A DNA stretch of 23,997 nucleotides, from assembly GCA_027577595.1 (NCBI GenBank), contig JANBRJ010000148.1, positions 1 through 23,997 of the forward strand, given 5' to 3'. A program made the position numbers and the translations under genes. The DNA comes from Coemansia sp. RSA 487 (taxonomy: Eukaryota > Kickxellomycota > Kickxellomycetes > Kickxellales > Kickxellaceae). Shown here in pieces: positions 631 through 23,997 of this stretch. Within the stretch, counting starts at the first letter, position 1. Every line of letters starts with the position of its first letter. A model generated the notes under the pieces. That model made no database searches. It was not told the origin of the DNA and saw nothing but the letters and a program-made list of their open reading frames with translations.

Positions 631-1410
631 TCAAGGTTGGACATTGCACTTCAAGTGGTTTATAGCCATAACCCGATAGGTCTCTAAATCTGGCGTCTGA
701 AGATCCACTACCTTGGATGCGTCATCCCACTTCCTGAGTTGCACTTTCTCCTTAAATAGTGGATCCTTTTCGAACGCAGCAGCATCCTCCGGTGAAAAGG
801 ATCCACCTTGGAATTTGAGTGAAAGCTTGCTTGCATTGCTAAGATCTTCATAGTATTGTTGGTCCACTGCTGTTAAATAGCGCTTTGCGACAACATGAGA
901 CTCTACCAACTCGCAGACCTTCTGTGAGAACCCCAGCTTGCGCAGATACTCGGCACCAAGCCTTTCGTGGCCAACGATACCAACGCTTTGTTCTGCCCCT
1001 TTATCATCTGCGTCCTTGGACAGCCCAATAGAGCCAGTGTCGTCTAGCTCTTCCACAATCATTCGCTTCATCTCCTTTGCCGAGCAAAATTGGCCAATGT
1101 CGTGGAGAAGGGCCGCTAGCACGGTTTCGTCATCTGCATTTGCTTGTGTTGCATACAATGCTGCCTGAAGAGCGTGCTCAAGCTGGGAAATGCTTTCTCC
1201 AATATACCCTTGCTTACTTCCGTTATCAAGGAGATGAAAAACAGCATCAACTTTGGATTCGGCTGGTAGAGAAGATGTTATCTGTACCATCGTTTTACTA
1301 GCAATATTATCTTTTCGTTGGTTGTTAAGATATGGAGAATAATTCACAACACTCGTAAAGCTGGACATAACTTTAAAGGTTCTGAAGACGAAATAAGGAA
1401 AGCGTAGCAT
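631..1410 (-). CDS. PhnZ/TmpB-like HD-domain mixed-valence diiron oxygenase
   Basis: A 259-residue single-exon product when read from the ATG at 1410; later in-frame ATGs at 1368 and 1290 are alternatives. The bacterial family (PhnZ, TmpB) cleaves the C-P bond of 2-amino-1-hydroxyethylphosphonate or its trimethyl analogue with O2, releasing phosphate. Residues matching the PhnZ iron ligands are all present at PhnZ-like spacing: H79, H103-D104, H148, H172 and D229. The lid pair Tyr-x-x-Glu (Y69, E72) and the phosphonate-contacting K176, S194 and R226 also align. Family blocks SQLEHALQAA, HVVAKRYLTAVD and RKWDD are clear. Differences are Gln107 where PhnZ has His62, and about 23 extra residues between D104 and H148. 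The first 33 residues (MLRFPYFVFRTFK...) are basic and aromatic and could be a mitochondrial presequence. The substrate is unknown, and no PhnY-like hydroxylase lies nearby. Confidence 0.85.
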   Translation of the reverse strand: MLRFPYFVFRTFKVMSSFTSVVNYSPYLNNQRKDNIASKTMVQITSSLPAESKVDAVFHLLDNGSKQGYIGESISQLEHALQAALYATQANADDETVLAALLHDIGQFCSAKEMKRMIVEELDDTGSIGLSKDADDKGAEQSVGIVGHERLGAEYLRKLGFSQKVCELVESHVVAKRYLTAVDQQYYEDLSNASKLSLKFQGGSFSPEDAAAFEKDPLFKEKVQLRKWDDASKVVDLQTPDLETYRVMAINHLKCNVQP

Positions 1411-1589
1411 CCCTCTCTTCTGTAATAAATACCCATGCCTCAAGTATCATTTTGATGCCAACTCCGCTTAAACAACAATCTTTAATGCGGCGAATGACAA
1501 CACATGGCGTTCCCACATGCAAATTGGGTGGTTCATTCCCTACATTCTCATCCATTGTTCTAAGGGCATCAATTGCATACTGTGCTATA

Positions 1590-4737: not shown

Positions 4738-5431
4738 ATGGGACACATGTATGTGGGAGTGTGCGCAACAGACGATTTGATCTCTGTATATTTTCGATTC
4801 CGTATGTGGAAATAGCTGTTTGCGTGCGTGGTCTGCTGCTGGCCAGCAAGTGGGCGGGGGTGCGTCATTACTAAACCGTTCGTTTTTTTTCATCATCTAT
4901 TACAATTTCTATCAATATATGCTTTTGGGGTTTTCTTAAAGGAAGTTTGTATAAATACAACCTCCTGTACTGTATTTGGTTAATGAATTTTGGATCAGGA
5001 GATAGTATGTATAAAATTCCATACAGTAAAATGGTGGAAAATAGCTTTCTAAATCGACTACCAAGCGCCAGCGTGTCTGATACCTATATAAACAGATGCA
5101 AATTCTGGCTTAGCTATTGATTTATCGATACATATGATAGGGAACGTTCCTTCCGACTGTATGTGTCTTATCCATCTAAGAAATTTGGTCTTTATGTTGC
5201 AAGTATTCTGTTGTTGTTTGTTGTATTTACTGTGCTCGTGGCTAAACGATGCTTTCTCTCGCAAACAATGGAAAAAACACGACCTTCACGCATTGCCGAA
5301 AACCTACCTCCTCAACGCCTGTGTTTTAGAAACTTCCCTTCCTCTCAAATAGTGTAGAACTATCCATACTTTTTGGATTCAAAGTTAATACATTATTTAT
5401 GTCAAAAGTCAAGCTGTTGAAATGAAACGGG
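4738..5431. other. 694-bp intergenic region between TPX2-like and RRM-GX3 genes
   Basis: AT-rich spacer between the stop of the plus-strand TPX2-like gene and the stop of the minus-strand gene at 5432, so two 3' UTRs are expected. It also holds a TATATAAA box at 5085-5092, followed by a small hydrophobic open frame (see the separate entry). No RNA gene or repeat is recognised. Confidence 0.4.
5134..5352 (+). CDS. Possible small hydrophobic protein (doubtful)
   Basis: A 72-codon frame begins with ATG about 42 bp after a TATATAAA box at 5085-5092. Its centre (LVFMLQVFCCCLLYLLCSWL) could span a membrane once. A second frame over the same DNA, open from 5121 to 5357, encodes a better-looking membrane anchor (FGLYVASILLLFVVFTVLVAKR) flanked by basic residues, but it has no in-frame ATG. 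Only one of the two can be real, and neither resembles a family I know. Both could be chance frames in a spacer. Confidence 0.2.
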   Translation: MIGNVPSDCMCLIHLRNLVFMLQVFCCCLLYLLCSWLNDAFSRKQWKKHDLHALPKTYLLNACVLETSLPLK

Positions 5432-6049
5432 TCAGCTCACATCTTTATATCCGTCCTTCATCCCAAGCCTGAATCCTTCTCGAAACCCCTTTTGGTAGTC
5501 GTCTGTTGGTTCACTCTGCTTATAGAATGGGTTTATTGGGAATATATCTGTGTTTTGTGCAACTGTACTGTTATTCTGTTCTGCACTCGCCATCCACACA
5601 TCCTCATACCATCTGTGGAGCTGTGTCGGACTATGGTCGTAAGACTGACATACATAAATCTCCACCCCATTTAATATCGACTTGTTAAACTGTTTGACTG
5701 CCGCACGCACGTATTCTGTAACTGCTTCTACTTCTTTGCTGGTTGGTGGTGGTAAAGATTGCGGTGGATCGCCAGGAGATGCGCCTAGCTTGTAGTCGCC
5801 ATCGTAGAACCGGACCAAGGCTTGTGCGAGTATCTGCCCTGATGTATTGGCCTCAACTGGAATGACGTCCCACACCTTGCCGACCTTTTCAAAAGCTCTC
5901 TTTAACTTTTCCATTGACATCGACTGGTTGCCGTAGTTGACGTGGACGGACAAGCAAGCAAACCGTCTGGCAGCTGAGCGCTGAAATGAGTGAACACAAA
6001 GCCCTGGCAGTGCACGCCGCTTGGCCTGTAAAGCCCAAAAAGCAGACAT
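5432..6049 (-). CDS. Mitochondrial RRM-like protein with C-terminal (GX3)4 tail, paralogue A
   Basis: A 205-residue single-exon product that I do not recognise as a named protein. The N terminus (MSAFWALQAKRRALPGL...SAARRFACL) is rich in Arg, Ala and Ser without acids, like a mitochondrial presequence. An RRM-like fold follows: an RNP2-like strand CLSVHVNYG, helix MEKLKRAFEKVGKVWDV, and an RNP1-like strand QALVRFYDG. A Pro-rich insertion (PPPTSKEVEAVTEYV) comes before the last strand. The C terminus is DDYQKGFREGFRLGMKDGYKD, four glycines spaced GxxxGxxxGxxxG, as in Yae1/Lto1-type deca-GX3 helices. It aligns end to end with the divergently transcribed gene at 6381. TTTACAG at codons 6-8 resembles a 3' splice site, so an upstream exon and a different start cannot be excluded. 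Confidence 0.7.
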   Translation of the reverse strand: MSAFWALQAKRRALPGLCVHSFQRSAARRFACLSVHVNYGNQSMSMEKLKRAFEKVGKVWDVIPVEANTSGQILAQALVRFYDGDYKLGASPGDPPQSLPPPTSKEVEAVTEYVRAAVKQFNKSILNGVEIYVCQSYDHSPTQLHRWYEDVWMASAEQNNSTVAQNTDIFPINPFYKQSEPTDDYQKGFREGFRLGMKDGYKDVS

Positions 6050-6380
6050 TATCTAGAATACACAAATAGATGCACAAGCAGTATCTAACTAATAAATAGA
6101 CAAAAAAGAGAGAAGCATTGGCATGTTTGAGCACCAAAGGACTTGACTTTCTTTTCTTGATCTCCGTTTTCGCCTGCTGATTAAATTGCGACTGATTATT
6201 TTCTTGTTGTGCAAAAATATTACTGTCACAATCAACAACACAAAAGTTTTGCATGATCAGCAATGGCGCACATTCTTTTCCTCTCTTTATCTTTCTCTCT
6301 CGTCTATTCTGTCTTGGTTACCGGCTTTTTTAAACATTCTGAAAATTTGCTAATCGAAAACAGATTCATATTGCTTATAA
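6050..6380. promoter_or_regulatory. Shared divergent promoter of the two RRM-GX3 paralogues
   Basis: 331 bp separate the two start codons, so this region must carry both promoters and both 5' UTRs. It is AT-rich with pyrimidine tracts (CTCTCTTTATCTTTCTCTCTC) just upstream of the plus-strand gene. TTATAA lies immediately before the ATG at 6381, which is too close to be a TATA box. The arrangement suggests co-regulation, which is an inference. Confidence 0.55.
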
Positions 6381-6962
6381 ATGTTCCGCAACGTCCTTTC
6401 TCGCACCTCAGCCACTTCTCGTTTTGCCTTGGGGCAGCAGGCTCGCAATCTCGCATGCTCCACCGTGTATATAAAGAAGCTTCCGCGGGATATAACCAAG
6501 GAGACTCTTACTCCCTATGTCGAGAAGTTTGGGCCGATTTATGATGTCACTGTCAGGGATGTAACACCTTCTGACTACCATGGTGTTGCGTTTGTCAAGT
6601 ATTACGTCGGCAAGCTCCCAAGCTCCGTTGAGGAGCTTGTCCAGATGCCTTTCCCAACGCCAGCTGAAATTGACGAAGTTACCCAAATCTCTGCTAGTGC
6701 AATCGAGGAGCTCAACAAGACGGAAATCGGCGGGGAATATCTTATTGCCGACCATGCGCGGAGGAACAAGGCCGATTCGATTCAGTTTTATGCGAGATAC
6801 ACCATGCAAAAGGCCAACAACGCCACTAGTTCTTCAAGAAGTGGGCCGCCACTCCCCCGCAGCAGGACTACGTCTGAACGTCAGAACTACACGAGAGGGT
6901 ACCAGGAGGGCTTCAAGGACGGTATTGCGGAGGGGAAACGTCTTTCGCAAAACTCCACCTAA
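6381..6962 (+). CDS. Mitochondrial RRM-like protein with C-terminal (GX3)4 tail, paralogue B
   Basis: 193 residues in one exon. The N terminus (MFRNVLSRTSATSRFALGQQ) is a good mitochondrial presequence candidate: Arg/Ser-rich and free of acids. The RRM-like domain has an RNP2-like strand STVYIKKL, a helix ending EKFGPIYDV, and an RNP1-like strand HGVAFVKYY. An inserted acidic/Pro loop (PFPTPAEIDEVT) and an IGGEYLIAD strand follow. A Ser/Arg/Pro linker leads to the C-terminal YTRGYQEGFKDGIAEGKRL, again GxxxGxxxGxxxG. It shares order, insertion and tail with the gene at 5432-6049 but is diverged in sequence, which implies an old duplication. A role in mitochondrial RNA metabolism is plausible; no specific function is known to me. 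AATAAA at 7019-7024 is a likely poly(A) signal. Confidence 0.75.
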   Translation: MFRNVLSRTSATSRFALGQQARNLACSTVYIKKLPRDITKETLTPYVEKFGPIYDVTVRDVTPSDYHGVAFVKYYVGKLPSSVEELVQMPFPTPAEIDEVTQISASAIEELNKTEIGGEYLIADHARRNKADSIQFYARYTMQKANNATSSSRSGPPLPRSRTTSERQNYTRGYQEGFKDGIAEGKRLSQNST

Positions 6963-7006
6963 TGTCGAGAAGATATGCTGTGGAAACATTGTTGTTGATT
7001 AGATAG

Positions 7007-7024
7007 TTTATTTTGCTCAATAAA
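7007..7024. terminator. Overlapping bidirectional poly(A) signals
   Basis: AATAAA at 7019-7024 serves the plus-strand gene ending at 6962. TTTATT at 7007-7012 is AATAAA on the minus strand and lies 94 bp beyond the stop of the J-protein gene. The two signals point towards each other across 18 bp, so the two transcripts should overlap at their 3' ends. Confidence 0.5.
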
Positions 7025-7105
7025 ACAAAGGCTAGTAGCCATTCCTTGAATGTTATTAAAATGTCTAAACTCTTGGGGAAATATATTGCTTGTTAACTAA
7101 AGCCA

Positions 7106-8368
7106 CTATTGGGCCTGGCATTCAGGCACTGCGTTTCCATGCATGCCAGTGTAGTTTGATTCATATTCGTCGTCGTCGTCATAGTACTGACGGCGAGATG
7201 ATTCCTTTTGTTTTGTACGCGATTCAAAGACTTGTTCTGGCAGAGAGTGCGCGACCGATACTTCAATATCAGCGTCGTCTGATGTTACCGGTGTGTCGTT
7301 TGGCCGGCAGGTAGAAGGCAGTAGCCTCCTGAGCTCAGGATCTGGGTTCCAGCCCTTTTCGGGGAACTTGATGCTAACTTTGATAAACAGATCGCCCCGA
7401 ACACGAGGGGACTGCTCGCGCGGCATGCCTTCATTGTTGATGCATAGGAATTCGCCGGGATGCAAAATGCTGTCCTTGTGAGAGACCATTACCAAGCGGC
7501 CGTCTAGATGTGTAAAAAGCACTCTGGAGAACCCACACAGGGCTTCAGCTAGATCAATCTCGGCACTCGCAATTAAGTGATCTCCGGATCGTGTAAATGT
7601 GCTATGTGGTTTTTGTTGCAGAACAAATACAAGATCAAGAGGTTCTTTCGTGCCCGGGCTTTGGTCTCCTTTGCCCTTAAGCACGATCTTCTGGCCGTCG
7701 GCCATGCCGGGATCGATCTTTATCTCAACGGACTCATTCTGCTTTTCCGTGCACGATCCTTTGCATTTGCGACAGAGATACTTTTCTGGAACGACCTTTC
7801 CTGTTCCCTTGCACCGCTGGCATATCATCATTTGATGCGTGAAATGGACTGGCCCCACTTTCCTAGCCGCCATCCGGCTACCCTTGCCACCACACTCCAC
7901 ACAATCCTTAAATGCCTTCTTCTTGCCACCCAATCCCTTGCAGCGTCCGCATGGAACAGAGCGTTCGAGCTTCATTCGCATCTTTTTTCCGCGAAACAGT
8001 TCTTCAAGCGAGACACTCAACGGATGCTGCTCTACTCTTGGTTCCCGCTGTGGCCCACTACCACTGCCACTAGCACCGAACATACCTCCGCCAAACATCT
8101 CCGCATATATGTCGTTCATGTCAAACTCGCTTCCGTACATTTCTGGATCTGGCTGGCCGGTAGCTCCGTATTGATCGTAGAGCGCTCGCTTCTCTGGATC
8201 GTTAAGCGTCTCGTATGCATGGCTGATCTCTTTGAATAGTTCTGCACCCTCAGAGTTTTTGTCTGGATGGTATTTCATTGCAAGGCGACGGTATGCGCGC
8301 TTGATCTCGGCATCGGTGGCAGTCTCGTCGAGCTCCAAAACTTCATAGTACGATCGCATAGTAGACAT
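7106..8368 (-). CDS. Class A (type I) J-domain co-chaperone of Hsp70, Ydj1/DNAJA type
   Basis: 420 residues, close to yeast Ydj1 (409). It stimulates Hsp70 ATPase and delivers unfolded clients. The J domain (about 6-68) has the HPD triad at 34-36. A short Gly/Phe segment (about 78-111) follows. Four zinc-finger cysteine pairs start at C140, C156, C183 and C199; the last (CRKCKGSC) lacks the final Gly, as eukaryotic class A members often do. The C-terminal substrate-binding domains include GDLFIKVSIKFPEKGW. The protein ends in CQAQ, a CaaX box whose final Gln favours farnesylation, which suggests a cytosolic, membrane-tethered form like Ydj1 rather than a mitochondrial Mdj1. A TTTGCACAG just before the ATG may be a 3' splice site of a 5'-UTR intron. 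Confidence 0.93.
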   Translation of the reverse strand: MSTMRSYYEVLELDETATDAEIKRAYRRLAMKYHPDKNSEGAELFKEISHAYETLNDPEKRALYDQYGATGQPDPEMYGSEFDMNDIYAEMFGGGMFGASGSGSGPQREPRVEQHPLSVSLEELFRGKKMRMKLERSVPCGRCKGLGGKKKAFKDCVECGGKGSRMAARKVGPVHFTHQMMICQRCKGTGKVVPEKYLCRKCKGSCTEKQNESVEIKIDPGMADGQKIVLKGKGDQSPGTKEPLDLVFVLQQKPHSTFTRSGDHLIASAEIDLAEALCGFSRVLFTHLDGRLVMVSHKDSILHPGEFLCINNEGMPREQSPRVRGDLFIKVSIKFPEKGWNPDPELRRLLPSTCRPNDTPVTSDDADIEVSVAHSLPEQVFESRTKQKESSRRQYYDDDDEYESNYTGMHGNAVPECQAQ

Positions 8369-10391: not shown

Positions 10392-12688
10392 ATGACTCCG
10401 CCGCCTAGCTGGTCAGCGGTAGCAAAGGTACTTTCTTTTTTACTTTAAATGCAAACATTGCTGTGGAAAATGTTTTCTCTCCTATTCCGAATGGACCTTA
10501 CACTAATGCCTTTAAAGCGCTTTTTCTTCTTAATTCACTTTTGATGTTAATGTGTAGACTAACCTCCCACGGACAAAGGCTCCAGAAACACAGCAAAAAA
10601 CGGAAACACAGCCAAAACAAGCGTCACAGCATCATAGTCAGAATCAGCACCGGATACCACAAGCAAATAAGAAAACGAATACGAATGGGTCACAGGTGTC
10701 AAAAACAGAATACGCGGAGGGCATTCCCGTCCGTGAACTTGGATCGCAAATCTCTCGGAAGTCTATGAAGTTTGGAATGCTGGATATTACAATAGATGGC
10801 CCCACCGATGAAACATATCAGGTATATTCCCTTCCCCCTCCCTTTGCAACCATTCGATTCGGGGCGAGGAATGCTGCGGTACTTGCATTCTTTTCGTTCT
10901 TGCTTGATGAGGAGACATTGTTCTATTGTGCGTACACATGAGTGAGAAATACCAAGTATGTTTGTATTAACTCGTATTTATGAAACTTCCGCATTTCTTT
11001 ATATCGTTTTCCGATGTTTTGTAGGTTCCCTTTTCCATTCCACCAGATCCAGGTAATTATTGAAGTTTTTCTCTCTTTGCCGTTTCTGCTAGCCAAATGT
11101 GATGTTTTGGTGCTTGCTGGCCGTTCGTTTGGATATTATCTAATTTCATAATATTCTGTGTATTTATGTATAAATGTCGCTCTTTTACATTTCATTTGGC
11201 CCGTGTATAGAGTTCTGGGCAAGCTACTACATTGAGCGTCGTCGCCGGAAAGCAGAAAAGCGCAGCAAACGGACACAAACATCGGTATCACAGTATTTAG
11301 GGTCACAATCCCAAGCCAAACTTGAATCGGGACCAGCTGCTGCGCCCAAGCCAAAGGCATCGAGCTGGGCTGCACTGTTAAAGTCCGGCAGAAACAGCTC
11401 TGCGGCGAGCAGCAGTGCCACCAACGGCAATATAAACAACGATAGTACGCCTGGCCAAAACAAGTTCAAGTCGCTCCACGAGGCCCTCGAGAATTGGAGC
11501 GTAGCTTTCAGCTCGACTCCACTGCAGCCTAGGGGACTGGTGAATAACGGAAACATGTGCTTTATGAACGTCGTTCTGCAGGCGCTCCTGTACTGCGCAC
11601 CATTCTACAATATGCTGTGGAGCGTGAAGGAGAGTGTTGCATTTAGCTTCAACACCACAACACCGCTCCTTGAAGCGCTTATACAGTTTGTACACGAGTT
11701 TAGACACGACAAGACGCCGCTGGCGCAGCTAGAAACCGAGCTTGACGAGCCGTTTGTGCCTGAAAACGTATACGAGGCGTTGCGGAAGAAGAACGTGTTT
11801 CAGACGCTTCGCGGACAGCAGGAGGATGCGCACGAGTTTATGAGCTATCTTGTTGATGGCATTCACGAGGAAATGGCCAGTGTTATTCTGTCGCAGCACC
11901 ACACGCAAGCTACAAAGCCAAATACGGGGCCTTGCAGCAATCAGCCGCCTGCAACACAACCACTGGCCTCTGATAAGGATGCCGGCGGATCAGACTGGCT
12001 GGAGGTTGGACCAAAGAACAAGGGCATCCTTGTGCGCGACACCGGCCAGTCAGCAGCCAAAACGCCCATCACGCGCATCTTCGGGGGCGCTCTACGGTCG
12101 ACACTATCTGTGCCACAGGCTGTGGGCAGCGAGCACATCTACGCGCAAGGCGGCAAGCCGCCGCAAAGCTCGAATCGCGAGCCGTTTCGAGAGCTGTCGC
12201 TGGACATCTCGTCCAGCACCGTCGACACTATCGAGGAGGCGCTGGACGAGCTGGTTGCCCCCGAAACCATCGAGGGATACATGAATCTTCTTGGGCAGCC
12301 GGTGAACGTAACAAAGCAGTCGCTGTTTGAGAAGGCGCCGCCCGTGCTGGTTTTTTACCTGAAGCGGTTTGTGTTCTGCCACAACGACGGCGTGCAGAAG
12401 GTGCACAAGTTTATTGAGTATCCGCAGGTTCTGACACTGTCGCCAAAATGGTTTGCCCGAAGCGCTGAAGCGGCCAAGCACAAAAACGCAAGGTACAGGC
12501 TATGCAGCGTCATCTACCACCACGGATCGCACGCATCGGGCGGACACTACACGTGCGATCTGCTGCGCTCTGCAAACGAATGGCTCCGGTTCGACGATGT
12601 GGACATCGGGTGCTTAAGCTCTGTCGACGACGTGCTTGTTGAAAAGAATGACCGCACGGCATACATCCTTTTCTACACGATTTGCTAA
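10392..12688 (+). CDS. Ubiquitin-specific protease of the Ubp3/USP10 type
   Basis: Four exons, 10392-10427, 10558-10821, 11025-11052 and 11211-12688, give 601 residues. Each junction is GT...AG and keeps frame. The enzyme removes ubiquitin from proteins; Ubp3/USP10 members act in trafficking, ribophagy and stress granules, with Bre5/G3BP as a partner. The N-terminal about 200 residues are polar and low-complexity. The catalytic core begins at about 215 with the Cys box GLVNNGNMCFMN (C226). The QQEDAHEFMSYL helix follows, then a Ser/Gln-rich insertion. The His box is GSHASGGHYTCDLL (H555), with FDDVDI (Asp near 571-572). The GNMCFMNVVLQALLYC spacing and the VFYLKRF strand favour USP10/Ubp3 over other USPs. 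The first three exons are inferred from splice signals and open frame; exon 3 is only 28 nt. Confidence 0.88.
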
Positions 12689-12826: not shown

Positions 12827-12872
12827 TCACCTTTTGCGTGCACGCTTGGCTGGGGCACGGCTGGCAGCAGCA

Positions 12873-12907
<35 letters not shown>

Positions 12908-15900
12908 GCGCCCGCGCTTCTCGTCATAGGCCTTTGCCTTTGCCTCAAGGTCGTCCCAGTCCTCGCCAGAGTCGTCGTCCTCGTCGTCCTCCATCGACTC
13001 GTCGCTCTCTTCGCCAAAGTCGGACGCTTGCGACGACTCGGACTCGTCTTCCTCAAAGTCGTCCTCGGAAACAGCAAACTCGCTCTCCTCCTCCTCGGAC
13101 TCGTCGTCTTCGGCGTCGCTGTCCTGCGCAAGGAAGGACCAGCCGCCGTCCTCGTAGAAGCCCGCAGGGTCCTTGTTGACGGTCTTCATGATCTGCGTCC
13201 AGTTGAGGTTGATCGGGCCCTCGGTGTACGCGAGGTTGACCGAGTCCAGCCACTCCTTGACGTTGTCCAGCTGCTTCATCGGCACGGTGTTGACGTGCAC
13301 CGGCGCGCGCTTGAAGTCCTTGAAGACAAACACCATGTCGAAGTTCTTCAGCCCAAACTGCACGCGCTCCAGATGCACAATCTCGACATCCGCCACGGTG
13401 ATGATGAAGAAGGGCGTGTCGCTGAGGTGCACAAGGCAGTCGACCGTGGGCTGGAGCAGCACGTTTGCGCGCGACGGCACGCCGCTGAATGCAACCTCGC
13501 GGAACGGCGTGTCCACCTCGACCTCGTGGTTGCTGGACTCCGCAATCCTGGCCGCAAACTCCTTGAACTCCTTGTTTAGCTTGCGGCGGCGGCGGCGCTC
13601 CTCCTGCTCGGCCTCGATCTCGTCCTCGTCGCCGTAGCGGATGCGGCGGCGGCGGTTGCCCGTCTCGTCGAATGACGCATCCGACGCCTCGCGGTAGAAC
13701 TGGATGTCCTGGATCTTCTTCTTGCCCAGCATGATCGGGTTCTTCAGGTGGACGTGGATGAGCACCAGAAGCTCAAAGTCGCACGGCTGGTAGAACAGGT
13801 GCCTGATGTTGTTGAACAGGATGTTGACGGCGGTGCCTCCGGCGCGGCCGGCAGACATGTACCGCAGCCCGTTGGCGTGGATCTCCAGCGCCGCAGGGAA
13901 CCGCTTGCCGTCGGCCACAGGGCGCATGAACACGTCGGGCAGGCGGTCGGGGCGCTGGCCGTGCACCGGAAGCAGCCTGTCCTGCTGCACAATGTCCGCC
14001 ATCTGCTGCTTCTCGGTCTCGCGCTTCACCTGGTCGCGCTTGAGCGTCGTGATGCTGTGGTAGATCTCGTTCATGCGCGCAACGTCCGTCGAGCGGAAGG
14101 AAAGCGACCGCACAAACGTGCTGCTCAGATCGCCGACAGGAAGGTTATCCTTCTTCCCGACGCCCTGGCCCGGCGACACCATGTTCAGCCGCAGATACAC
14201 GTACTCGCCTTCGTCGTTCTTGCTGATGTTCTTCAGCGTCGAAATGTGGAAGGGCACCGACATGCCGTAGATCGGAAGGATGATGGAGTCGGCGCGCTCG
14301 TCGACCAGGATCTTTCCGCTGCGCGCCTCGCGCGGAAGCGCCGTTTCGCGCTTGTAGCTTTCAAACTTCTTCACCTCGCGGGTCTCCTCGCCGTTGTCGC
14401 CGTCGTCGCCCGCAAAGCGTCTGCGGCCCTCGACAAGCAGCCTGTTCATGAGCTCCTTCTGGTGCTCGCGGCGCTTGCGCGTGCTCGACTCCTCCTCCTT
14501 CTCCTCGCTGCGGAACTTGGACGGGAGAATCGCCGATTTGCGGGTGGTCGGGCGCTGGTCGCTGGCCCCGTTCTCGCGCTTTGGCGCACGCTTTGCCTCC
14601 GCCGCCGGCTCCTCGTCGTTAAAAAAGAACGAGACGTCGTTGGGCTCCTTGCTGCACAACGTAATGACCTCGGCATCGCGCCCTTCTCTGATCACCACCG
14701 TGTCCAAAAGCTGGTAAGCATAGCTCTTCGACTGGCTGTCGGCCGCCTTTTCGTTGGTCATGTTCTCGAGCCCAAGGCGGAGGATCGCGACCATGTTGGG
14801 CTTCAGCGTCTCTTCGCTGCCAGGCTTGAGCTCGTTGACGCCATCGTTCATCTCAATGCCTGTAACCCAGCCGCAGTCCTTGCAAAAGTGGCTCTCCAGG
14901 TCGGGCCGGCGCTCTTTTACAAACTCGATTGCCTTGCCGTACACAGAGCCCATGGTTGCGCCAGCCTGCATCCAGCCAGGCATTTTCTTGTGGAGCTCCA
15001 GCAAGAAGCCATAGTTTCCTTCCTGCTCTGGCGTCGGGTCAATCATAAAGGTGCGCGAGATGGTGGCGTTATACATAAAGTAGCGTATGCTCAGGGTGCA
15101 CACGACTGTGCCGGCATGAAGCGGCGCTGAGCTCGACTCTGCGCTTGGTGAGAGGTTATACTTGCCGCCGCTCTGGACGCTAGGCTGGGCGGCCCATTCC
15201 GCCATTTCAAGCATGGGGATCTTGTTAAACAGGCGCTTGGCCAGCTTGTCGTTTGTCAGAACATTGGCGACCCTTTCCGCGATCTTCTCATTCGAGATGC
15301 TCTTCCCCTCGTCAAATGTCTTTGCCATCTCGTCAATAAAATAGTCCTGCATCGCGGCATTGCACATCGTCGCAGCTGCTGTTTCGCTCTTGATTTCGCT
15401 GTCCTCCTTCACTGCAAGGACGCTCGAGATAAACCGGCTTACGTTGTGCTCGGTAATGGCCGTCTTTTCCGCTGCATACATCGCGGCCCATTCGTCAACA
15501 AGCTTTCCATCGGTAGCGTCGCCTGCGATGACGCCCACAGAAGAGCCAGAGTCCTTAATCACCGATATAAGCCGGCTGAAGGTCCCCTTGTTTGTGTCAC
15601 TATCCTTCGCATGCACAAGGATCTCTATCGGCACGCCGTCAGCCCCCGACTGGAGTGGCTGGAGGATCTTTGCCTTCTTCTGACTAGCCAGGATGTAGAT
15701 CTTCTCTTTTGTGAAAAACATTAGCGTGTTTGGGAACTCGTAGCCAAGCAGCCACATCTGCGTAGCAATCGTCTTGGTATACGGTCTCTTTTCGTCGGCG
15801 CGGCCTTGCAAAACCAAAATGGATCCGACTTTCTGGCATTCAGCATAATCAGAAGCCTATACACCAATTAAAGAACAGAGTGCTTTTGTTAGATCAAAAT

Positions 15901-21093: not shown

Positions 21094-21174
21094 TATGTAT
21101 AGATTGACTTGCTGTTCTTTTTCTCCATTGCAAAATTTTGCTCTTCTTTGTATCGCTAGGTCGCACAGTTTAAT

Positions 21175-22032
21175 TATTGCAAAACTAACTGCGTCAAACA
21201 AGGATATATGCGCGTCAAGTGATCAAAGGCTTGCAGTGGCAATAGCACATTTTGCATTCCAAGAAAAAGTCGTTTGCGCCAGTTGACGTTATGTTTGCGC
21301 TTGGAAGCAAGGGGCGCAAACTGGACTTTGTGGAGAAAGCTGCTCGGTACACGTCTATTATTTCACACCAAAATGGATTGGCTTCCTGGTCTCTGTCTGT
21401 GCTTTCAATGTGATTAGTTAACATTGATCCTAACAAAACCTAGCAATCTGGAGAAATACCACTACTACCTTGAACAAGAACAACAACTAAGCCATGCACT
21501 CTTTGCTAGATGTAGACCTATTGGAAGAATATTGTCACTCGAATAAGGAGCCAGAGAACATGGTTGTACACATGCGCATGTTGATGGATGCTTCATTGAG
21601 AGAGCCTCAAGCCGTTTCTGTTGCCAAAAAGAGAAAAGCCAATGGCAAGGAGATCAGGATTAGTGGGTAGGTTGGCACACAGACAGAGCACTTTCTGGCC
21701 TACATCTTATGTATTCGATGTGCTAGATGCAAAGAGCATGAAGGGCTGCTATCTTGTGATGGACAATGCTCCAATCCACACGCCATTAGCTATTCGAGAC
21801 CTAATAGAAAACAGAAGATACAAGTATCTATATCTCCCCTTCTAAATCCTATTGAGGAGCTTGGGTCCAAAATAAAATCGGATGTTCGCAGAACAGCGCT
21901 TACAGCAAAAGACAGACTCAGTGATAGAATATGCGAGGCAGCCAACAAAGTGATAGCATCAGACAGCCAAGGCTACATTGGACATTCAATGACATTCTTC
22001 TCTCGCTGCAAAGACGAAGAAACGAATATTTA
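21175..22032 (+). mobile_element. Decayed IS630/Tc1-like transposon, same family as the two left-hand copies
   Basis: The 5' inverted-repeat sequence at 21175-21280 matches the ends of the 1590-2340 element. The leader and ATG (21494) match the minus strand of that element. The frame from 21494 gives MHSLLDVDLLEEYCHSNK...KKRKANGKEIRISG and then a stop. The next part (about 21668 on) encodes the catalytic end: KGCYLVMDNAPIHTP with the second Asp, then NPIEE, then VRRTAL...RICEAANK and FFSRCKDEETNI to a TAA at 22030-22032. The region with the first catalytic Asp is missing, and small deletions sit around the usual LPPYSPFLNP block. No right inverted repeat is found after 22032, so the 3' end is lost. 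Confidence 0.85.
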
Positions 22033-22186
22033 ACTCTTTTATTTTGACAAACAAAGCTTGTACTCAATCCTCTGATTGCTGTGGGTAGTTTGAAAGCCCC
22101 TTCCTTCAGTTACGATAACCAACGTTTCTGATTTTCTTTTGTAACTGGGATAACGATTAGGCTTGCTAGTTGCCGAGCCACTATCG

Positions 22187-22249
22187 CAATATGATAGTCT
22201 CATGTCGGAACAATCATATTGTTGGGAAGCATATATAGTATGCTTCCCA
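22187..22249. repeat. Two tandem inverted repeats (potential hairpins)
   Basis: The first has 9-bp arms CAATATGAT (22187-22195) and ATCATATTG (22213-22221) with a 17-nt loop. The second has 11-bp arms TGGGAAGCATA (22223-22233) and TATGCTTCCCA (22239-22249) with a 5-nt loop. They are separated by one base. Their position just outside the Fanzor unit fits a transposon end, a regulatory structure or part of an LTR. I cannot decide between these. Confidence 0.75.
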
Positions 22250-22380
22250 GTTATCTAGTTCAATTGTTGTAGTGTGTGTACGGCTATAAAAGCCAGGTTG
22301 TTTATGAAAATAGAGACGAGGAAATTTAGCTCCGTCTGCTCTCTTGATATTCTTGTGAAAAGTGATATATCAGTATCACA
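22220..22380 (+). repeat. Possible solo LTR-like relic (copia-type layout), weak
   Basis: The segment starts TGTTGGGAAGC, has a TATAAAA box about 65 bp in, then a CTCTTGATATTCTTG stretch, and ends near TATCACA. That is the general layout of a short Ty1/copia LTR. I could not find a target-site duplication or an internal region, so this may simply be a promoter-bearing spacer. If real, it is an old, lone terminal repeat. Confidence 0.2.
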
Positions 22381-22472
22381 AGCGCTCCCATGCAAGCTAA
22401 AGAACGAAAATAGAATGTGTGCCTGATTAGAAAAGGCAATGGTGACATTGATGACTCAACGTTAGTCAATGC

Positions 22473-22479
22473 TATATAA
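22473..22479 (+). promoter_or_regulatory. TATATAA box upstream of the Fanzor frame
   Basis: TATATAA lies about 145 bp before the ATG at 22623, in an otherwise unremarkable AT-rich stretch, and is the closest TATA-like element. Assignment rests on position only. Confidence 0.35.
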
Positions 22480-22622
22480 CGACCAAAGGGCATTTGTTTT
22501 TCCTTTTTGCTTTTGTTTCTCCTTGGCTTTCCTTTGACATTTTATTTCTACGAGTAACACCAAATACACCTTTCAACGCATGTTATATTAGTTATCTGCC
22601 CTTGTTTGCTCACCTATCACCA

Positions 22623-23997
22623 ATGGACAATGAGGATATATCAGACACAGGGACGCATGTTATAAAGTGTCCCCTAAAATCCCTGGTAAATGACAGAAAT
22701 GACATTGCCAAGGTAGACGACTATGTCATAGTGGCCAACACAGCCTCTACACACATGTATGGGCTGGCTCGTTGGATATTTGTCCACGAGCTGGCTACTC
22801 ACAAGCAGTTTGATCCTTCTATGTACCTGGAAAAGAGGTTTTTTGGTGAGGTATTCCTGCACCTCACCAAGCGGAAAGCCAGGCCGAATGTCAAGACTGA
22901 AGTCCAGGAGTACAGGAGGTCATACGCAAGCACCTGGATGCGTACAAGGAGGCTGCTGGCATCACAGAGTTTGATATAGCCAACTCGAACCAGACAGCAC
23001 AGTTCTAGGCAGCAAGAATTTACACTGCATACGTGAATAATATACAGACCAAGTTTGGTCAGCATCTTCGGTGTGCAGTAAATGTTTTGTTGAAAACTCG
23101 GGAGCGCAAGAGGGATCTTGAGGAGGCAATGAAGGGCAGAGCAGCAGATGAGATAAAGGAAGCATATGAAGACCAGATTTGGAAACCCGGACAAGAGTTG
23201 AAAGAGGCGATAAAGCACCGCAGCACTGTTCTTCCAGTTATCACTGTGGGCGATAAGAACATCGGGGACATGCTTGAACCTGTGTTGACAGCATACGACA
23301 GCAACTATAAGTTTGAGGAGGAAGGTATTTATTACGATATCAAGGCGCATCCAAAAAAGCACTTCAAAGCATTCTGCTACTTGGCAGTGCTCCTTGAGAC
23401 GAACGACTGCAGAGCTTTCCAGTGTTTCCCGTTGCGGAAGTCGTTTGTGCCGATGCACATCGAAATTGACACCACTGTATTATGTAATAGCATAATGGGC
23501 TGGAGCTATAACGCGAAGTCCCCCATTGAAATCTATTGGTATAGGCTGTTCAACGAACAGTCGAGGGTGCTACGGACAAGAAACGGCTTCAGATTCTACG
23601 GCACGATACAAACCGATGGTGTGTCAGTGTCTGTGATCAAAATGACTGCAGCAGCCAAAGAAAAAAGCAGCTGGAAAGCGAAGAAAAGGGGCACTGAAGC
23701 AAATTCTGCCATTAAGACCAGTGGAAGTAGACTAACGGCTCCAGTTGAGAGCATAGATACTGGCTCACTGCCAGAGGACCAGCCCAAAAAGCCCAAGAAG
23801 CCCAGGAAGCGAGAAAAGCCAGGAGAAAAGAAGTTGGGTGAGTCCTCATATATCCATGAGCTTTCGCCAGAGCAGTTGGCCAACATGAAAACCCCAATTT
23901 TCATGGACCCGGGTCGCCAAGACATTGTCTTTGGCATGACAGATGAAAGCACCTCTGAGGAGAAAGCTCTTTTCCGATACACACGGAGCCAGAAGGC
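22623..23997 (+). pseudogene. Fanzor (eukaryotic TnpB-like RNA-guided nuclease), 5' part, interrupted and running off the window
   Basis: The ATG at 22623 opens MDNEDISDTGTHVIKCPLKSL... The first frame carries the N-terminal helical region (ARWIFVHELATHKQ...YLEKRFFGEVFLH). At 22902-22917 an 8-bp imperfect tandem repeat (GTCCAGGA, GTACAGGA) moves the frame. The coding sense resumes in the next frame as VIRKHLDAYKEAAG. A TAG follows at 23006-23008, and the frame is then open to the window end. That part contains YTAYVNNIQTKFGQHLR, AFQCFPLRKSFVPMHIEID, GTIQTDGVSVSVIKM and a Lys-rich tract (KKPKKPRKREK). The MDPGRQDIVFGM block fits the RuvC-I Asp motif of TnpB/Fanzor. RuvC-II, RuvC-III and the zinc ribbon would lie outside. 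Family Fanzors use an omega-RNA made near the 3' end. This copy looks inactive unless an intron removes the interruptions. The Fanzor call is from motif memory, not a search. Confidence 0.7.

Follow-up and report, generated by a model that had tools for sequence, protein, structure and literature searches.

The window, as we call the whole analysed stretch of 23,997 nucleotides, carries four ordinary host genes and, at its right edge, a damaged Fanzor1 gene that appears to share one transposon with the transposase remnant upstream of it (Table 1). A preliminary description of this DNA, made from its letters, had proposed a nuclease gene of the Fanzor/TnpB type at this edge, with a RuvC-I-like DPGRQDIVFGM at the end of the frame. 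Both proposals held. When the open part of the frame (23033-23995, 321 aa) was compared with the PDB, it matched the Parasitella Fanzor1 (PpFz1, 6.9e-35) and SpuFz1 (1.2e-13), and its RuvC-I motif is MDPGRQDIVFGM, soon after which the frame stops at the contig end. Pfam searches with two fragments from the window and three from the sister copy L009 gave nothing significant (best 0.025).

Table 1. Features of the window (positions of the whole stretch).
Feature	Position	Strand	Basis
HD-domain protein, ordinary host gene	631-1443		
Short non-autonomous member of the TIR family of the Fanzor element, lacking both Fanzor and scaffold segment	1580-2341	-	TIR matches 1728-1580 and 2236-2336
DnaJ, ordinary host gene	7106-8368		
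Ubiquitin hydrolase, ordinary host gene	11174-12688		
FACT subunit Spt16, ordinary host gene	12827-15817		
Left TIR of the Fanzor-carrying element	21167-21289	+	77% over 115 bp to the inverted right TIR of L014 (21289-21178); outer end placed by pattern
Remnant of a Tc1/IS630-type (DDE_3) transposase, decayed and split among several frames; MDNAPIH and NPIEEL recognisable	21300-22032	+	Translation; DDE_3/IS630 matches of L034 and L032
Fanzor1 N-terminal coding part, ATG to frameshift (approximate position)	22623-22918	+	91% DNA identity to intact L012, its bases 1-1367 from ATG
Fanzor1 continuation in frame two, with a single in-frame TAG (23006-23008)	22919-23995	+	One TAG counted in C148:22910-23995; PpFz1 match
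RuvC-I motif MDPGRQDIVFG	23903-23935	+	D codon 23906-23908 = D426 of L012, aligning with SpuFz1 catalytic D383

Compared with intact sister copies, the window copy is interrupted twice near its beginning, by the frameshift near 22918 and by the in-frame TAG. Past the TAG it is open up to 23995, with 321 codons counted from 23033, and the continuation after the frameshift aligns with residues 97-455 of the protein from an intact sister at 87% identity. The two early interruptions in an otherwise open frame had been noticed before. A hidden intron, offered as an explanation for them, is ruled out: sister frames are open from ATG to stop.

These sisters come from the organism's own genome (17.8 Mb in 184 contigs), which was searched with the 1375 bases at the right edge of the window, 40 of 49 candidates being scored. 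At least 43 places match this stretch, the window included. In 22 of them, counting the window copy itself, the match spans 1250 or more of the 1375 bases, and identity to the 21 sisters is 86-92%. Several of the matches run into a contig end, a sign that the assembly tends to break in the Fanzor repeat. Twenty sister stretches were fetched. Unbroken stop-to-stop frames of 748-794 codons are present in five of them (L011, L012, L015, L019 and L024), and two more, L017 and L020, are likewise open and run into the contig end. Intact sister copies, which the preliminary description had suggested looking for, are thus present: from a common start, three uninterrupted frames encode full proteins of 733 (L011), 731 (L012) and 728 residues (L015). 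L019 deviates in the first ~20 codons, L024 is short of nine residues, and L011 has two frame-changing gaps in the alignment, yet its frame is open. We refer to the window copy and these sisters as family A.

Beyond RuvC-I, the sister copies carry the RuvC-II and RuvC-III motifs and a C4 zinc finger, which had been anticipated further along the gene and which the window misses as its contig ends with it. The 731-residue protein of L012 matched PpFz1 at 1.8e-99, SpuFz1 at 1.4e-42 and GtFz1 at 2.7e-5 in the PDB. Its residues D426, E606 and D674 align identically with the catalytic D383, E541 and D606 of SpuFz1, and only the D426 equivalent falls in the window; residue numbers follow the passages on SpuFz1 in PMC10432273, and the chain offset of 394 for this numbering was derived from the alignment. 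Bao and Jurka (2013), in the part of PMC3627910 that describes it, give the Fanzor1 pattern as D-X(125,275)-[TS][TS]XX-C4 zinc finger-X(5,50)-RD. A regular expression that allowed 5-60 residues inside the zinc finger and began at a D ahead of RuvC-I found this pattern in all five long sister ORFs. All five also contain, in this order, DPGRQD, TSK.CPNC...CTNELC and YNRD, the C4 zinc finger preceding YNRD; the window copy shows only the first D of the pattern, since the contig ends there. With the window frame and with the sister protein, significant PDB matches were exclusively to Fanzor1 chains, the comparison with Fanzor2 and TnpB being by PDB search. On the L012 protein, Pfam gave Cas12f1-like_TNB at 0.0025, below cut-off, with two weaker ones, and the NCBIfam search of the same protein gave no match. 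Since both the window frame and the intact sister match solved Fanzor1 proteins and the catalytic residues agree, the frame at 22623-23997 is confirmed as a genuine but damaged Fanzor1 gene.

The Fanzor gene begins about 590 bp after the end of the decayed Tc1-like sequence, near 22032. This distance, given in the preliminary description, is right; the view of the Tc1-like sequence as a separate copy is not. In the sister L014 the element is ~4.0 kb long (L014:1102-5121) and its homology to the window spans 21177-23997. Inverted, its right TIR matches its own left end; the left ends of eight copies, that in the window included, match it at 75-88% over 90-135 bp. TIRs of ~115 bp bound the transposase remnant and Fanzor jointly. 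Because the L014 right TIR matches 21289-21178 of the window and the homology continues over 21177-23997, the Tc1-like remnant lies inside the Fanzor element, and a separate Tc1 neighbour is ruled out: in sisters the right TIR belongs to the same element as the left TIR, the remnant and the Fanzor. The left end of the window element is approximate, as its outermost bases are degenerate in this copy.

The transposase, decayed in the window copy, could be assigned from longer sister ORFs. L032 and L034 matched DDE_3 at 1.3e-22 and 3.5e-19, and L032 matched the IS630 model at 3e-22, under NCBIfam's own cut-off. The spacing from the second D to the E is 34 (DD34E). TA flanks are found at 11 of 14 left ends, the left end of the element in the window being too degenerate for counting. 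At the 18 right ends, counted by eye, TA is found at 7-8 and CA at 8-9; element ends without TA are mostly one transition off it. The TA duplications are thus imperfect. TIRs and transposase support, at the level of sequence, a single Tc1/mariner (IS630-type) element comprising Fanzor and the transposase remnant. It fits the remark in the preliminary description that Fanzors are carried by Tc1/mariner elements; Fanzor1 with a mariner transposase is described in the relevant part of PMC3627910. A shorter member of the TIR family lies elsewhere in the window (Table 1, minus strand): bases 109-509 of the L014 element align on 2339-1946. In several copies (L009, L032, L034) antisense fragments of a Gypsy-type retroelement were observed between transposase and Fanzor. 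Their flanks are shared among copies, which suggests one old insertion spread with the element. A gene with a Zn2Cys6 domain adjoins L009 and, with the gene content in general, points to a fungal host.

Copies that have lost the nuclease gene are frequent as well. A search with the final 501 bases of the element gave at least 40 matching places (40 scored of 190 candidates; several at contig ends). At least nine of these have an inverted match to the left TIR within ~1.1 kb, leaving no room for a Fanzor gene. Six such 'ghosts' were read fully: they are ~1.0 kb long, bounded by TIRs, and keep the last 100-120 codons and the 3' end, with at least two distinct internal breakpoints among them. Their remnant codons have a dN/dS of 0.43, with 2 stops in 591 codons. 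As this dN/dS below 1 is a mark of earlier selection, the ghosts are not a clean neutral control.

The preliminary description had expected a conserved, structured omega-RNA region 3' of the gene. We compared Fanzor-bearing copies and ghosts in this region. In the former, the 92 nt running from stop codon to CTTTTGCAG have a diversity of 0.083 and the 180 nt beyond one of 0.139, a ratio of 0.59 (column bootstrap 0.41-0.82), versus a ratio of 1.31 (0.93-1.83) in the six ghosts. Permutation of labels between 15 Fanzor-bearing copies and the ghosts gave p=0.015, for a contrast that was chosen after the data were seen and that has just six ghosts on one side; L009, L010 and L025 were left out, their right ends being different. 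A scaffold conserved in ghosts is accordingly rejected, the six showing no extra constraint there. Folding gave a mixed picture. The alignment fold of the family A scaffold is weak (RNAalifold z -1.06). Single copies gave z -4.26 (L012), -1.93 (L019), -0.87 (L015, 1 base short of the final G) and -0.84 (L011), and two ghost stretches, with some bases beyond GCAG included, -2.41 (L046) and -0.45 (L050). The L012 stretch past GCAG folds no better than shuffles (z -0.97). That the guide RNA might extend back into the last part of the ORF was considered and rejected, synonymous change showing no dip there (pS 0.295, codons 721-731). Constraint and boundary thus favour the omega-RNA that had been proposed, the structure of the family A scaffold has no firm support, and the stretch may be regarded as a candidate scaffold.

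At the right ends of family A, 15 of 18 copies continue into common DNA past CTTTTGCAG. L010 and L025 break exactly there, L009 earlier. Beyond the right TIR, flanking DNA differs from copy to copy. A standard guide derived from the flank is therefore not evident for family A, the DNA after GCAG being shared element sequence in 15 of 18. Exact ATGCTGTCCCTTTTGCAG sites number 32 in the genome, and 94 sites are found with up to two mismatches. Twenty-six of the 32 are followed by the shared right arm with no more than three mismatches, those on C82 and C119 do so with small insertions, as in L015 and L026, and two are L010 and L025; the other two (C4:183676 and C39:145941) were unreadable. In L010 (reverse complement of 4841-7838) the missing right arm was seen inverted ~2.8 kb off, with a breakpoint at most 3 bases from CTTTTGCAG.

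Searching the genome with the L012 protein revealed a second Fanzor family, here family B, ~38-39% identical. Stop-free frames of 763-816 codons are found on C113, C23, C81, C101, C66 and C54, and one of 787 codons with a stop on C41; C65 is a further place. The loci on C113 and C81 are designated L044 and L045. One family B protein matches PpFz1 at 9.6e-101; Pfam Cas12f1-like_TNB gave no match from a family B protein. More diverged frames were found in the same search on C57, C29 and C18. These, with C7:154499, are Fanzor-like, ~34-43% identical to family A, and possibly represent other subfamilies.

Homology at the 3' end of family B stops at query positions 234-245 in 15 of 20 non-self matches, and TTGGCA ends at 241. 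In the 15 junctions read, L044 and L045 included, the conserved block reaches TTGGCA or a variant of it; 10 end in GGCA, while L057, L059, L060, L064 and L065 differ. The 50 nt past this end in the 15 copies resemble each other no more than shuffled sequence does (mean local scores of 6.5 and 6.3, respectively). Two copies fold at z -2.45 and -4.26. The right boundary of family B looks as it would if a scaffold ended there and a guide specific to each locus came next; truncation at a transposon end would look alike. On the other side, the left part of L044 (L044:494-888) is common to seven other places (C23, C101, C45, C10, C54, C9 and C66) and is part of a short mariner-like family, for which 104 candidates came up and 40 were scored. 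Two 'empty' relatives, on C116 and C4, lack the Fanzor stretch at L044:888; the relatives L052 and L053 are joined without it. In L045 the stretch that has relatives begins ~180 nt ahead of the ATG. Family B was also examined as a possible clean insertion into another mariner family, one whose inverted ends are short and read TGCCA. A search with the right arm of L044 found parts of it in six other places, none of them adjoining the 13 further family B junctions. The two family B copies read are flanked by host genes.

Taken together, the window very probably holds a damaged Fanzor1 copy carried by a fungal Tc1/mariner (IS630-type) DNA transposon, with scaffold and guide presumably arranged as follows. 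For working copies we infer RNA production, a guide position, cleavage and a benefit to the element. The Fanzor protein would bind an RNA whose template is the end of the gene encoding that protein. The ~92 nt that run from stop codon to CTTTTGCAG would serve as scaffold, with TTGGCA as its end in family B, and the guide would be the stretch right after it. In characterised Fanzors the guide is 11-21 nt long. The ribonucleoprotein would then cut matching DNA beside a short motif. The likely beneficiary is the transposon: once a site that does not carry it is cut, repair could copy the transposon back.

The end of the scaffold can be read otherwise. In family A it might reach the end of the right TIR, with the DNA that borders the transposon in the genome serving as guide. 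SpuFz1 offers a precedent: its guide RNA takes in the right inverted repeat, according to the section of PMC10432273 that deals with it. The common right arm past GCAG and the right TIR followed by different DNA in each copy agree with such an extended RNA. We consider it unlikely: constraint ends at GCAG, the post-GCAG stretch of L012, the sole one folded, is no better folded than shuffles, L010 and L025 break at GCAG, and in family B GGCA or a close variant directly meets unrelated DNA. A scaffold that ends at GCAG also admits a further, rather improbable variant, in which the guide of family A is fixed and is the element's own right arm (GTAGGTGCTC... after CTTTTGCAG), so that the protein would cut Fanzor-less sisters and convert them, family B having a private guide per locus. 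If true, one genome would use two guide strategies, each copy being selected because its guide benefits that copy.

Whether the nuclease does anything at all was judged from the substitutions. The window copy and most sisters have frameshifts or stops, and ghosts without the gene are common, as would be the case if Fanzor were a functionless, dead passenger of mariner amplification. In 17 copies, gaps that change the frame number 31, and L025 and L026 account for 12, so most copies are broken today, mostly via one to three events. Against a dead passenger, dN/dS is 0.28 across 21 Fanzor-bearing rows (0.26 for four near-intact ones), and the tree of 17 copies is star-like, with terminal branches summing to 0.865 versus 0.075 for internal ones. 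In-frame stops in these 17 copies number 9, of which 7 are in L025 and L026, versus ~59 expected without selection, a plain count without codon model in which 3.1% of changes yield a stop. The star-like tree and the stops far below expectation place purifying selection along individual copies, where it acted through much of their history. With three full-length open frames in addition, a dead passenger is very unlikely. This long-term constraint on individual copies, like the host genes beside the two family B copies, would also suit a domesticated Fanzor that serves the host and not the transposon. The many copies, the TIR context, the ghosts and the decay speak against domestication, which we hold to be the least probable of all these readings.

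Why many unrelated eukaryotic transposons carry Fanzors is an open question that this genome addresses. It brings together two Fanzor1 families with intact frames, nuclease-less ghosts that allow a comparison within the genome, and natural junctions at right ends. Joint selection of scaffold, guide and nuclease in each copy becomes testable here through substitution counts and small-RNA sequencing, and the intact proteins (~730-745 aa) are candidates for biochemistry. Tc1/mariner elements that code for both a transposase and Fanzor1 are already in print (in the part of PMC3627910 on these elements), as are ghosts and an RNA between stop and right end (in the corresponding parts of PMC10432273); what is likely added here is detail on the probable guide boundary. 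Among the titles listed from the open-licence Fanzor literature none indicates family A, a nameless family being hard to find by words, and among the matches listed for open-licence papers on early fungal groups none mentions Fanzor.

The closest published counterparts differ from family A in several respects. SPu-1 of Spizellomyces punctatus, the source of SpuFz1, resembles it in having many Fanzor1 copies, intact and broken, ghosts without ORF, Gypsy insertions in some copies and a guide RNA between stop and right end, as described in portions of PMC10432273. According to the same portions, SPu-1 has inverted repeats of 30-33 bp and no transposase was found inside, whereas in family A TIRs of ~115 bp are present together with what is left of a transposase. 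The RNA regions of S. punctatus ghosts are described there as strongly conserved, in contrast to the six ghosts here, which show no extra constraint. The Mariner-Fanzor1 elements PGv-1 and PUl-1, in the account of PMC3627910 that covers them, likewise join a mariner-like transposase and Fanzor1 in one Tc1/mariner element; they have TA duplications, which are imperfect in family A. The four related examples detailed there are single-copy and partly viral; family A, unlike them, is multi-copy and fungal, and its transposase, of DDE_3 type, IS630-like and DD34E, is disrupted in the window. Family B recalls CRe-1/2/3, whose copies are intact at the 3' end but truncated at the 5' end, and also CMe-1A, whose 5' part is shared with a short element (same account). 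CRe elements are Helitrons and CMe-1A is unclassified; for Helitron ends, just the last bases of family B were looked at.

PpFz1 of Parasitella parasitica (PDB 9cf0) is the best PDB match for the window frame, the intact sister and family B. L012 aligns with it in three stretches over residues 32-698 of 731, and the two agree in all three catalytic residues and in the layout of the zinc finger. At one point ~107 chain residues of PpFz1 (988 to 1096) stand opposite 10 in L012, an insertion that appears to be absent or much shorter in the latter. According to the pertinent part of PMC11423790, PpFz1 binds cyclophilin through a RuvC insertion (FRI) domain, and the alignment gap may correspond to this domain.
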